A stretch of DNA of 64,000 nt from an uncultured Aquimarina sp. Its GTDB lineage: Bacteria > Bacteroidota > Bacteroidia > Flavobacteriales > Flavobacteriaceae. The position numbers and the translations under genes were made by a program. Where the stretch lies: positions 1 to 64,000 of the forward strand of contig CANMLS010000011.1 in NCBI GenBank assembly GCA_947498785.1, read 5' to 3'. This document shows, piece by piece, positions 28,764 through 32,544 of this stretch (its first letter is position 1; each line of letters starts with the position of its first letter). The notes under the pieces were generated by a model. It was not told where the DNA came from. It saw only the letters and a list, made by a program, of their open reading frames with translations, and ran no database searches.

Positions 28764-30866
28764 ATGAATATAAACTTTATAAATATCCGTTTGCTTTTTA
28801 CACTGATTACACTTTCCGTGGTAAGTACATCATGTTCTCAATCTGAAACGATAGAAACACAGATTGCATGGGATACATGGGGTGTTCCGCATATTACTTC
28901 AACTACTATTGAGGATTTATTCTATGCACAAGGTTGGGCTCAAATGCATAATCATGCCAACTTGATTTTAGAACTTTATGGAAACTCTAGAGGAAAAGGA
29001 GCAGAATATTGGGGACAAAGTAAGCTTCAAAATGATATGCTTATCCATACATTAGGATTTGAAGAATTAGCCAAAGAATGGGAAACAAAACAAGATCCCG
29101 AAATCAAAACTATTTATACTTCTTTTATCAAAGGGGTGAATGCGTATGCAAAAAAACATCCAGAAGCAATAGATCAAAAAAACAAAGTTGTCTTGCCACT
29201 TACTACCCAGGATGTGAACATGCATAGTATTTATGTCATCTTTACCCGTTTTATTGCTGGGAATGACTTGGGGCGTGTTCAACAATGGCCAGATATGGGA
29301 TCCAATACGTATGCGATTGGCCCTCAACGTTCTGCTTCTGGAAATGCTATGCTAGTACAAAATCCTCATTTACCTTGGTGGAAAGAATTTTTATTCTTCG
29401 AATCACATTTAAATTTTAACGGAAAAAACATGTATGGAACAACTCTAGTGGGTTTCCCTGGAATTGCAATTGGTTTTAATGAAAATTTAGGATGGAGTCA
29501 TACCAATAACACCATTGACAATACAGATACTTATGAGCTAGAATTGAAGGATAATGGCTATCTTTTAGATGGTAAACAAACAGTATTCGAAACATCTTCA
29601 AAAACGATAAAAATAAAACAAAAAGATGGCTCTTTGATAGATCATAAAATACCTTTGATGAAGACTATCCATGGACCAGTAGTTAATAAGACCAAAGACA
29701 AGGTGCTAGCATTACGTATGGTGGGATTAGATCGACCAAATATGTTATTACAATGGTGGCGAATGATTAATAGCACTAATTTTAATGAATTTGAATCTGC
29801 ATTAAAAATGGCACAGATCCCATTTTGGAATGTAATGTATGCTGATAAAAAGGGGGATATTTTTTACCTGTTTAATGGTTTAGTTCCTAAAAGAAGCCAA
29901 GGTGATTGGAATTATTGGGATAGAATTATCCCAGGAGGTAAATCTGAGGATGTATGGACAGAAGTACATCCATACGCAGATTTACCAAAATTAAAAAACC
30001 CAGCAAATGGCTGGTTACAAAATGCAAATGACCCGCCCTGGACCAGCACCATACCTATGACCTTAAATCCAGATGACTACCCAGCTTATATGGCTCCTCA
30101 GTCTATGCTTTTTAGACCTCAACGTTCTGCAAGAATGTTACTAGATGATGAATCTATAACTTTTGAAGAATTGGTAGCTTATAAACTCTCCACTCATTTA
30201 GAATTTGCAGATCGTATTTTGGATGATCTTTTTGCCGCCATAGATGCTTCTGATTCAAAAAAAGCAAAAGAAGCAAAGGTAGTTCTCAAAAATTGGGACA
30301 GAGAAGCAGATGCAGACAGTAAAGGGATGTTACTATTCTTTAACTGGGCACGTAAATTTAATGTACGACAAAGCTCTAATTATGCTAAACCATGGAGTAT
30401 CAAAACTCCCAATACAACGCCAGATGGACTTTCTGATCCCAAAAGAGCGGTTGAATTATTAGAAATCTCAGCAACCAAAATAAAAACAAAATTCGGAAAA
30501 CTAGATATACCTTGGGGAGATTATTATAGAATCAAATATAATGGAAAAGACCTTCCTGCCAATGGTATTGATGGATCTATGGGTGTTTTTAGAGTAGCAT
30601 GGCCAGGTGACGCTGATGAAAATCACATGTATGTAGGTGGTGGTGACTCTTGGGTAGGTGTCATAGAGTTTGGTGATACAGTACATGCAAAAGTATTATT
30701 AAGCTATGGTAATGCCTCTCAAAAAGGTTCTCCCCATAATGGAGATCAATTAGAGTTATTTTCTAAAAAAGAATTACGTAACGCCTGGTTTACAAAAGAA
30801 CAAGTTAAAGCTAATACCTCTAAATTGGAAACCCTCACAGAAAGCGGGTTTCAGGAAAAAGAATAA
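28764..30866 (+). CDS. Penicillin-acylase-family Ntn hydrolase, lipoprotein
   Basis: 700 residues with a lipoprotein signal (VVSTSCSQSE). The N-terminal alpha chain begins with IAWDTWGVPHITSTTIEDLF, and the beta chain starts at the autoproteolytic Ser180 in GSNTYAIGPQRSASGNAML. Further conserved parts are NPHLPWWKEF, GFNENLGWSHTNNT and the C-terminal YVGGGDSWVGVIEFGD and YGNASQKGSPHNGDQ. Such enzymes cut acyl side chains from penicillins, homoserine lactones or similar amides after self-cleavage. The substrate cannot be inferred. A quorum-signal acylase or peptide deacylase is possible. Followed by a strong terminator. Confidence 0.93.
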   Translation: MNINFINIRLLFTLITLSVVSTSCSQSETIETQIAWDTWGVPHITSTTIEDLFYAQGWAQMHNHANLILELYGNSRGKGAEYWGQSKLQNDMLIHTLGFEELAKEWETKQDPEIKTIYTSFIKGVNAYAKKHPEAIDQKNKVVLPLTTQDVNMHSIYVIFTRFIAGNDLGRVQQWPDMGSNTYAIGPQRSASGNAMLVQNPHLPWWKEFLFFESHLNFNGKNMYGTTLVGFPGIAIGFNENLGWSHTNNTIDNTDTYELELKDNGYLLDGKQTVFETSSKTIKIKQKDGSLIDHKIPLMKTIHGPVVNKTKDKVLALRMVGLDRPNMLLQWWRMINSTNFNEFESALKMAQIPFWNVMYADKKGDIFYLFNGLVPKRSQGDWNYWDRIIPGGKSEDVWTEVHPYADLPKLKNPANGWLQNANDPPWTSTIPMTLNPDDYPAYMAPQSMLFRPQRSARMLLDDESITFEELVAYKLSTHLEFADRILDDLFAAIDASDSKKAKEAKVVLKNWDREADADSKGMLLFFNWARKFNVRQSSNYAKPWSIKTPNTTPDGLSDPKRAVELLEISATKIKTKFGKLDIPWGDYYRIKYNGKDLPANGIDGSMGVFRVAWPGDADENHMYVGGGDSWVGVIEFGDTVHAKVLLSYGNASQKGSPHNGDQLELFSKKELRNAWFTKEQVKANTSKLETLTESGFQEKE

Positions 30867-30890
30867 ACACAATTAAAATAGTATTTTTGT

Positions 30891-30928
30891 AGCCCAAAAG
30901 ATTCAAAAGAATCTTTTGGGCTTCTTCT
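30891..30928 (+). terminator. Strong terminator of the acylase gene
   Basis: A perfect 14-bp stem (AGCCCAAAAGATTC with GAATCTTTTGGGCT) and a 4-nt loop, then TCTTCT. It lies 24 bp after the acylase stop codon. Confidence 0.9.
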
Positions 30929-31055
30929 ATATTCTTATCAAGTATTATCAAACTTTAAAAATTAGAAAGTACTGTAAAATTCGATAGTATTAATCGAAAA
31001 AACTGTTCTTTCCTAAAAGAAAACCAAACAAATCTTAAAAAAATGTTAACAAAAA

Positions 31056-31086
31056 TGTGTTTTCTTAAGATAAATCTTTATATTCG
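31056..31086 (+). promoter_or_regulatory. Candidate promoter of the structured RNA (TGTG-N19-TATATTCG)
   Basis: A near match to TTTG-N19-TAnnTTTG with one mismatch in each element. It would start transcription near 31091, about 300 nt before the terminator at 31360. No reading frame follows. Confidence 0.35.
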
Positions 31087-31090
31087 CCCT

Positions 31091-31390
31091 ATCAAAAGTA
31101 GCTTCACAACCTCACACAAATCATTTTAACATTTAGTATTTATTCTATACAGTAGCTTAGTATTAATTTCATAATCTTTTAGACATTAGATAATGGTGTG
31201 CTTGATGAAATTAATAGAAAGAAACAATAGCATTAACAGTGCGAAAATTTTCGTCTGCTTGCTAGTAATTATATCGAAGGGAAATTTTCGAATTTAGCTG
31301 TAGTATCAGCATATAGTTCGAGTGTGTTGGGGGACACATCAGGTATATAATTACTGAATCCCTTCTCTGAGGAGAAGGGGTTTTTTATTT
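31091..31390 (+). ncRNA. Candidate structured non-coding RNA
   Basis: No reading frame fits this region, yet it ends in a strong intrinsic terminator. AGTAATTATAT (31264-31274) pairs perfectly with ATATAATTACT (31345-31355), closing a domain with three hairpins: AAATT-TTCG-AATTT (31282-31295), GCTG-CAGC (31297-31310) and TGTGT-ACACA (31323-31338) with a G-rich loop. The terminator follows 4 nt after the closing stem. The 5' end is uncertain: a promoter-like match at 31056-31086 suggests about 300 nt, but a shorter RNA starting near 31240 is also possible. It does not show tRNA, tmRNA, SRP or RNase P landmarks. Confidence 0.55.
31360..31386 (+). terminator. Intrinsic terminator of the candidate RNA
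   Basis: CCCTTCTC pairs with GAGAAGGG (8 bp) around TGAG, followed by G and six T. The nearest plus-strand protein gene ends about 490 bp upstream and has its own terminator, so this one serves another transcript. Confidence 0.85.
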
Positions 31391-31791
31391 AATATAATAC
31401 CATTTCTAGTATAAATTTACCCACTAACTTTGTAAAATATCTTTATGGTAATTTTCTACTTAAAACATTTGTCTTTAACAATAGAATCTTTATCTTAGGT
31501 CGATACTTGGTAAACATTACTCTTTCCCCACATTTTTGTATGTAAACGTAAACAAATGGTGATTAAAAGACCCGTTTTTTTCCTGATATTTTATGCTTTG
31601 CTACCAACTATAAAAGAGAAAATTATGAGTAAAAGTAAAACTCTGAAAAAGCATTAGAAATAAATTCATACCTTTTTCTTGTTTAGAATTATGGTAAAAC
31701 ATAATGATGATTTTTAACAAAAAAATTGTTACCCCGTTTTATCAACTTTACTTCATGAACACCACGTCGTGATTGAGCAACATTATGGAAT

Positions 31792-31817
31792 AAGAAAGGA
31801 CTTGTCTCCTTTCTTTT
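31792..31817 (-). terminator. Terminator hairpin after the exonuclease gene
   Basis: AAGAAAGGA and TCCTTTCTT form a perfect 9-bp stem with a 6-nt loop, 14 bp past the exonuclease stop. The flanking AT-rich arms mean that it could also act on the other strand. Confidence 0.6.
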
Positions 31818-31830
31818 CCATATCAAAATT

Positions 31831-32544
31831 TTACACTGATATCACTTCATGATCATCTAATAACTCCTCTTGTCGCATTCGTAGTAGAATTTGAGCTACA
31901 GCAACTGTATCTTTTTCACAATAAATTACAATGCGATCGATATCTTCTTCTTCATAAAAAACCTGCCGTACCTGACTACCATCTATATCATCTTTTGGAG
32001 AAGGGATTCCTAAAATACCTGTAAGCAATTTTAGAGAAGTATAATGTTTATAATCTCCAAATTTCCATAGATCCAAGGTGTCTAAGTGCGGGACTTCCCA
32101 GGGTTTCTTACCAAATAAGTTAAGCTTGTGAGGTAGTGATATATTATGAATAATCATCCTACGCGCTATATATGGAAAATCAAACTCCTTTCCGTTATGC
32201 GCACATAGTAAATGATTTGGTCTACTAAAATGAGTTTCTATTAAATTCTTGAAATCTATCAACAACTGTTTTTCTTCTCCAAAAAAAGAGGTCGTTCTAA
32301 ATGATCTAGTTTCTCCCTTATATGCAAAATATCCAACTGATATACATACGATCTTACCAAATTCTGCCCAAATACCTGCTCGCTTATAAAACTCTTCTGG
32401 GGTGAATTCTTCTTTACGCTGATATTTGGTTTTATCAGCCCAAAGGTATTTCATTTCTTCACTAAGCTCTCCAAAATCTTTATATTCTGGAACCGTTTCT
32501 ATATCCAAAAACAGGATATGTTCTAAATTAAGTTTATGAAGCAT
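31831..32544 (-). CDS. Predicted 3'-5' exonuclease (PolB exonuclease-like, RNase H fold)
   Basis: 237 residues of DEDD-type exonuclease fold related to the proofreading domain of family-B DNA polymerase (PF10108 type). The acidic residues appear in ILFLDIETVPEY, in CAHNGKEFDFPYIARRM, and in IVIYCEKDTVAVAQILLRM. It would trim nucleic acid 3' ends with two metal ions. Nothing else of a polymerase is present, as usual for this stand-alone family. It starts 11 bp inside the end of the serine-hydrolase gene, so the two are co-translated. Confidence 0.88.
   Translation of the reverse strand: MLHKLNLEHILFLDIETVPEYKDFGELSEEMKYLWADKTKYQRKEEFTPEEFYKRAGIWAEFGKIVCISVGYFAYKGETRSFRTTSFFGEEKQLLIDFKNLIETHFSRPNHLLCAHNGKEFDFPYIARRMIIHNISLPHKLNLFGKKPWEVPHLDTLDLWKFGDYKHYTSLKLLTGILGIPSPKDDIDGSQVRQVFYEEEDIDRIVIYCEKDTVAVAQILLRMRQEELLDDHEVISV

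Follow-up and report, generated by a model that had tools for sequence, protein, structure and literature searches.

Does the DNA between a penicillin-amidase gene and an exonuclease-like gene of an uncultured Aquimarina species encode an RNA of its own and, if it does, what kind of RNA might this be? The locus lies in a window of 64,000 nucleotides, which is the whole stretch of DNA that was analysed. An initial annotation, made from the letters of the window, had proposed a highly structured non-coding RNA with its own terminator. The upstream neighbour (28764-30866) belongs to the penicillin-amidase family (PF01804), and the downstream neighbour (31831-32544, minus strand) is exonuclease-like and convergent (PF10108 and PF13482), both according to a domain scan.

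The region had been described as free of reading frames and highly structured, and it is both. No ORF of at least 40 aa occurs in 31056-31390, and folding of the region gives a z-score of -3.05, with none of 100 shuffles as good. Judged from the sequence and its relatives, a small, strongly folded RNA that codes for no protein is very probably encoded here. We infer that it is transcribed and that it acts in trans. The fuller reading, which we regard as somewhat probable, is a stand-alone, non-coding, structured sRNA of about 290 nt with its own sigma-A-type promoter and terminator, forming a genus-level family in Aquimarina. It would stand outside the classic families, as had been proposed, because the promoter box, the 5' element, the stems and the terminator are conserved together in 25 homologues while the flanking genes change, and because it has no match in Rfam.

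The locus and its putative transcript

The features of the locus are listed in order of position.

31034-31050, plus strand: upstream box CTTAAAAAAATGTTAAC, lying 28 bp ahead of the -7-type box; may be an UP element or a site for a regulator
31079-31086, plus strand: -7-type promoter box TATATTCG, of the TAnnTTTG type, kept in 25 of 25 homologues
31091-31383, plus strand: putative transcript of about 293 nt, its start taken from the box position and its end from the terminator
31102-31108, plus strand: 5' element CTTCACA, in 22 of 25 homologues
31161-31216, plus strand: leader hairpin with a 12-bp stem (31161-31172 with 31205-31216), strong in the window; found in changed form in the near homologue L035 only
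31238-31256, plus strand: hairpin A, variable in sequence and unevenly supported
31255-31263, plus strand: linker CTGCTTGCT, conserved in part
31264-31274, plus strand: P1, 5' strand, an exact 11-bp pair with 31345-31355
31287-31294, plus strand: P2, 5' strand TTCGAATT, a covarying stem
31297-31310, plus strand: putative hairpin inside P2, GCTG/CAGC; many homologues lack it or have it in another place
31315-31322, plus strand: P2, 3' strand AGTTCGAG, which holds TTCG at 31317-31320
31323-31338, plus strand: P3, TGTGT-TGGGGG-ACACA, with TGTTGGGGGACAC invariant
31345-31355, plus strand: P1, 3' strand, pairing with 31264-31274
31356-31390, plus strand: intrinsic terminator (scan site 31356-31383), whose 5' arm holds TCCCTT at 31359-31364

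The initial annotation had described a promoter-like TGTG (31056-31059) followed, 19 nucleotides later, by TATATTCG. Both are present in the window and TATATTCG is conserved, whereas the TGTG is not. A box of the form TATATT[CTG][GC] stands upstream of the RNA in all 25 homologues, and a conserved putative promoter of its own is one mark of a stand-alone sRNA. Since the sigma-A box TAnnTTTG of Flavobacterium psychrophilum sits at -12 to -5, according to the available text of one report (PMC9723704), the transcript would start near 31091 in the window. Where the leader is shorter, homologues are predicted to give a transcript of roughly 210-270 nt.

Further conservation is seen on either side of the box. 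CTTCACA follows it by 12-15 nt in 22 of the 25 homologues. The combination TATATTCG-N8-24-CTTCACA is found in 12 of the 37 genomes of the genus, a single time in each and without exception at this RNA, and its reversed control occurs 6 times altogether (hand count). Upstream, about 9 of the 15 homologues found first have a recognisable, altered form of CTTAAAAAAATGTTAAC, and other sequence takes its place in L002, L004, L005, L007, L008 and L009.

Homologues and distribution

A DNA search gave matches in 15 of 56 genomes, the window's own included, and all 15 belong to one genus, Aquimarina. A covariance model of the core between the two P1 strands (R1; P1-P1', 92 positions) was built from the first 15 homologues. 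Applied to 37 genomes of the genus, it recovered the same 15 genomes, each with one match and with E values between 4.6e-19 and 6e-11; the remaining 22 gave no match at E up to 1. With its members (most of them in the model) at E 6e-11 or better, R1 separates the RNA from the rest of those genomes. Because 22 of the 37 genus genomes have no match, the RNA is not needed throughout the genus.

Across the family, R1 matched only the window's own genome, both among 397 genomes (strict filters, 10 candidates scored per genome) and among 41 genomes in which about 103 candidates each were scored. In a collection of named genomes, an exact pattern of loop and P1 arm found 21 stretches, 19 of them in Aquimarina and 2 in bins (Flavobacteriaceae; Bacteroidia). 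The type strains of A. megaterium and A. mytili are among the bearers of the RNA. Eleven of these were loci already in the set and ten were new, which gives 25 distinct homologues. The loop 12-mer taken singly has 53 matches in the 397 genomes, the window's own included, against about 60 for its reversed control (hand count); at 29 of these loci, all outside the window's own genome, TAATTAC never follows the loop within 40 nt. Viral contigs gave no matches to one exact pattern.

Presence of the RNA was also placed on a tree of the neighbouring exonuclease, which has 30 rows, one of them a fragment and 14 with the RNA; the fifteenth RNA-bearing genome, where the gene is split, was left out. Presence takes 5 changes on this tree against 10.3 with shuffled labels, and none of 500 shuffles is as low. 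The RNA is clustered on the tree, with apparent losses. Beside the exonuclease gene, over 10 kb (2 kb in one case) in 19 of the 22 RNA-less genomes, there is no credible displaced or diverged copy, the best match having E 2.4.

Structure of the conserved domain

A leader that differs widely in length among homologues is followed, in order, by hairpin A, the partly conserved linker, P1, P2, P3 and the terminator. Conservation was scored on a MAFFT alignment of 25 distinct rows (A3), none of which was dropped in later counts unless stated. The structure scored was taken from the window's own sequence, which favours it over slid versions; 83.8% of cells are paired against 40.6-52.7% when slid, and 14 pairs show changes on both sides against 3-8. 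Three of 500 shuffles reach the paired share and none of 500 the covariation score. For the 14 pairs changed on both sides the shuffled mean is 10.7 (25 of 500 as high), and further pair types are not above shuffles (384 of 500 as high).

The exact 11-bp pair reported for P1 is present, and an 11-bp Watson-Crick stem arises in none of 300 dinucleotide shuffles of 31230-31356. Compensatory changes in this stem, put forward earlier as a check, are found to a slight extent. One inner pair shows a single clean double change, in one species, while 8 of the 11 pairs never vary among the 25 homologues; the outermost pair is often changed and is unpaired in 6 of the 25. The T-GGGGG loop noticed in the window is likewise real. 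Its hairpin columns, TGTTGGGGGACAC, are invariant in all 25 homologues, two of which have a sixth G. Three of the five pairs of P3 never vary, and one is broken in 8 of the 25. As most of P1 and TGTTGGGGGACAC are invariant, the pattern points to constraint on the sequence beyond pairing.

Because P1 and P3 hardly vary they give little covariation, and most of the support comes from P2. In its six-pair core, 5 pairs are changed on both sides and 92.7% of cells are paired, with variants such as CTCGAAT/ATTCGAG, CTCAAA/TTTGAG and TCGGATT/AATTCGA. The TTCG that had been taken for a tetraloop is part of the 3' strand of this covarying stem. The count of three hairpins within P1 also has to be revised, since the conserved domain has P2 and P3; the hairpin nested in P2 shows up in individual sequences, and 28-40% of its cells pair on A3. 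The terminator stem has 73.5% of its cells paired on A3. Misalignment may account for the low pairing of both. Taken singly, 4 of the 25 homologues have a hairpin A that outperforms its shuffles at p<0.05.

Comparison with known RNA families

When the covariance-model check against Rfam that accompanied the annotation was carried out (Rfam 15, 4227 families), no match over the gathering threshold was found in the 64-kb window. Between 30860 and 31840, at E up to 10, there are 14 weak matches. The best of them (E 0.053) is to a microRNA family and lies on the terminator of the upstream gene.

Several classic families can be set aside individually. A tRNA or tmRNA is rejected, as ARAGORN finds no gene for either in the window. 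So is 6S RNA: 6S-Flavo (RF01685) has no window match at the gathering threshold, nor one in 30860-31840 at E up to 10, and the true 6S-Flavo RNA of this genome lies at a different locus (L143; G000:C34:39130-39237, minus strand; 105.8 bits). A sponge for CsrA, of the CsrB/RsmZ type, is rejected because the CsrA family was found in none of four RNA-bearing genomes. The Hfq family was not found in these four genomes either, and control genomes gave matches for both families.

Possible mode of action

Within the sRNA reading, pairing between the loop and mRNA is the likeliest mechanism, and we hold it tentatively. The invariant P3 loop UUGGGGGA, presented by the P1-P2 scaffold, would pair with one or a few mRNAs, and Hfq would not take part.

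Three tests of the loop as a seed for start codons were negative. In 2.0 Mb of one RNA-bearing genome (G020; about a third of it), 7-mers complementary to the loop were found close to 1 of the 1533 start regions, where shuffles average 3.6. In 37 genomes there are 58 occurrences of the 10-mer GTCCCCCAAC, of which 13 belong to the RNA, and 52 of its reversed control, which is no excess (hand counts). Across 130 start regions of neighbouring genes, pairing with the loop is no better than with shuffled loops. The loop as a start-codon seed is therefore rejected and many start-codon targets are unlikely, which leaves one or a few targets, sites elsewhere in mRNAs, or a protein partner. Five other conserved elements were compared with the G020 starts, and the highest count belongs to 8-mers of the P1 3' strand, which occur at 39 starts where shuffles average 21.7, a count that 4 of 60 shuffles reach. 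In L030 the 5' element seemed on inspection to pair convincingly with the P3 loop (10 bp), but such pairing is rejected, since it reaches p<0.05 in 3 of 25 homologues against 5 of 25 for a reversed-loop control.

The likelihood of a partner protein that recognises the P3 hairpin is only slightly lower than that of an mRNA partner. In such a case the P3 hairpin and the sequence-conserved P1 would form a recognition site, and the RNA would titrate or guide a protein in the manner of CsrB or 6S RNA. Conservation of sequence and not only of pairing, with 8 of 11 P1 pairs fixed and the P3 loop invariant, is in keeping with this, as is the lack of any sign of an antisense seed near start codons. There is, however, no candidate protein: the CsrA family is not found in the four genomes, and the 6S RNA is a different locus. 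We consider a protein-binding role possible, if on the unlikely side.

In whichever way the stand-alone sRNA works, it would offer a clean case for sRNA action where the Hfq and CsrA families are not found (in four genomes). It gives one match per genome, is present or absent among close relatives, has an invariant loop that can be mutated, and comes with a covariance model that discriminates.

The terminator and its complementarity to the loop

The intrinsic terminator lies where it had been claimed, as a terminator-like site at 31356-31383. Two such sites occur in 30800-31900 where 0.2 are expected. Both neighbouring genes had been credited with terminators of their own; this holds for the upstream gene (30891-30922), while no minus-strand site for the downstream gene is found in 30800-31900. 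A stem of 8-13 pairs follows P1 in all 25 homologues, so that a conserved terminator of its own, another mark of a stand-alone sRNA, goes with the RNA.

The TCCCTT of the terminator arm is complementary to the GGGGG loop of P3. All 25 homologues have a corresponding stretch, CCYYY, that could pair with GGGGGA of the loop; it begins 4-9 nt beyond P1, in the 5' arm of the terminator or at its edge, and in 22 of them a T precedes it. The 3' end could then regulate itself: the P3 loop would pair with CCYYY and would delay or prevent the terminator unless the loop were bound elsewhere. The closeness of CCYYY to P1 each time is not given by construction. In a like-for-like strict scan, which recovers 12 of the 25 RNA terminators, all 12 arms have CCYYY (list read by eye); of the 273 other terminators that the scan gave in 2.0 Mb of G020, 23 have it. 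An A, which pairing would not allow in the first five positions, is found further along the arm, in 3 of 25 at the position next after CCYYY.

Several observations count against such self-regulation. The five pyrimidine positions, and with them the absence of purines, are set by the search string. The homologues share ancestry and hence are not independent events, and this ancestry may so far be a sufficient explanation of the regularity. Part of the stretch precedes the stem in L030, and covariation between loop and arm could not be demonstrated. Since the downstream genes differ, the first of them being convergent in 7 of the 23 homologues for which one was found (window included), read-through has no evident use. 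We consider a self-regulating 3' end improbable. A little less probable still is the complete form of the idea, that the RNA controls its own 3' end through the kept complementarity of G5 loop and terminator arm, with a partner that binds the loop (mRNA, protein or small molecule) deciding on termination and accumulation. If it were true, the terminator of a stand-alone sRNA would be the output of a sensor.

Gene context and coding potential

The 46 flanking proteins fall into 20 sequence clusters, and the homologues have neither a reading frame nor a downstream gene in common, as a stand-alone sRNA would lead one to expect. One cluster, of large proteins, takes in 13 of the 46. It includes the neighbours of the RNA in G004 (L144; G004:C8:290900-301600), a subtilase (PF00082) and a zinc carboxypeptidase (PF00246). 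These two peptidases (S8 and M14), both large and secreted, carry the sorting tail PF18962 and are the members of the cluster that were domain-scanned; shared accessory domains may hold the cluster together. A close relative without the RNA (G001, C2 near 327400) lacks the carboxypeptidase gene too, neither RNA nor gene being present in the interval from the exonuclease gene to a protein whose beginning resembles that of the subtilase. A joint absence of this kind could result from recombination between such genes.

A cis-acting leader or riboswitch of the downstream gene would be in keeping with a terminator directly following the structured domain. In 8 of the 23 homologues a same-strand gene of the large-protein cluster does lie 258-1360 nt downstream, and the one scanned, in G004, encodes the secreted zinc carboxypeptidase. 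Against this, no downstream family is common to all and the gene is convergent in the 7 cases mentioned. With no conserved co-directional downstream gene, a cis-acting leader is rejected as very unlikely.

The weakest alternative is a short coding transcript using the 34-aa frame of the window, which resembles a 52-aa frame of L035, while eight homologues have a 6-11 aa frame starting MCWGTQ that is made by the invariant loop sequence; this is extremely unlikely and is rejected because no frame is common to all 25, the longest ATG frame per homologue ranging from 0 to 52 aa and L006 and L011 having no closed ATG frame in the stretch examined (ATG starts only).

In two species, G023 and G026, the exonuclease-like gene is split in two; the pieces are separated by 8-10 kb and have an overlap of some 17-19 codons, as integration of an element with duplication of its target might leave them. 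In L006 the exonuclease gene has a recombinase-like frame (labelled by eye) next to it. The split pieces are as follows.

G023, C4:624106-624465 and 634431-634838: pieces of the split exonuclease gene
G026, C1:4646082-4646444 and 4654009-4654419: pieces of the split exonuclease gene

Comparison with known small RNAs

Searches of the literature on small and noncoding RNA of Aquimarina, on flavobacterial sRNAs and on Rfp18, supplements being outside the search, brought up no report of this RNA. It may be identical with an RNA, for instance Rfp18, whose listing is confined to a supplement. The available parts of two further papers (PMC11109978, PMC8632094) contain none of three group names searched for.

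6S-Flavo RNA (RF01685) is likewise a structured stand-alone RNA of the same bacterial group; it differs in having a separate locus in the genome of the window, and it has no match at this RNA.

GibS of Bacteroides thetaiotaomicron is described, in the available text of its report, as a conserved intergenic sRNA that acts in trans, with an intrinsic terminator and a host without obvious Hfq (PMC7366714). Both RNAs belong to the same phylum, and conservation in an intergenic position, the intrinsic terminator and the lack of an obvious Hfq are points of likeness. By the same account most of GibS is unfolded, and its 5' seed, which is single-stranded, pairs with start regions (PMC7366714). In contrast, the RNA described here is strongly folded and has an invariant hairpin loop, and seed matches at start regions were not found.

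Rfp18 of F. psychrophilum is a trans-acting sRNA tested by deletion, and its third stem-loop is predicted to pair with metalloprotease mRNAs, according to the available text of the report (PMC9723704). The comparison is by description; R1 matched 1 of 397 family genomes (the window's own), a set that may or may not include F. psychrophilum. As far as that text goes, Rfp18 is also an independent, strongly structured sRNA from a genus of Flavobacteriaceae (PMC9723704). The P3 hairpin is also third here, counting hairpin A and P2, and in G004 this RNA sits between two secreted peptidase genes. By its pattern of conservation, the locus appears to represent a new genus-level family of conserved sRNAs, ordinary in kind and with a single invariant loop that is striking.
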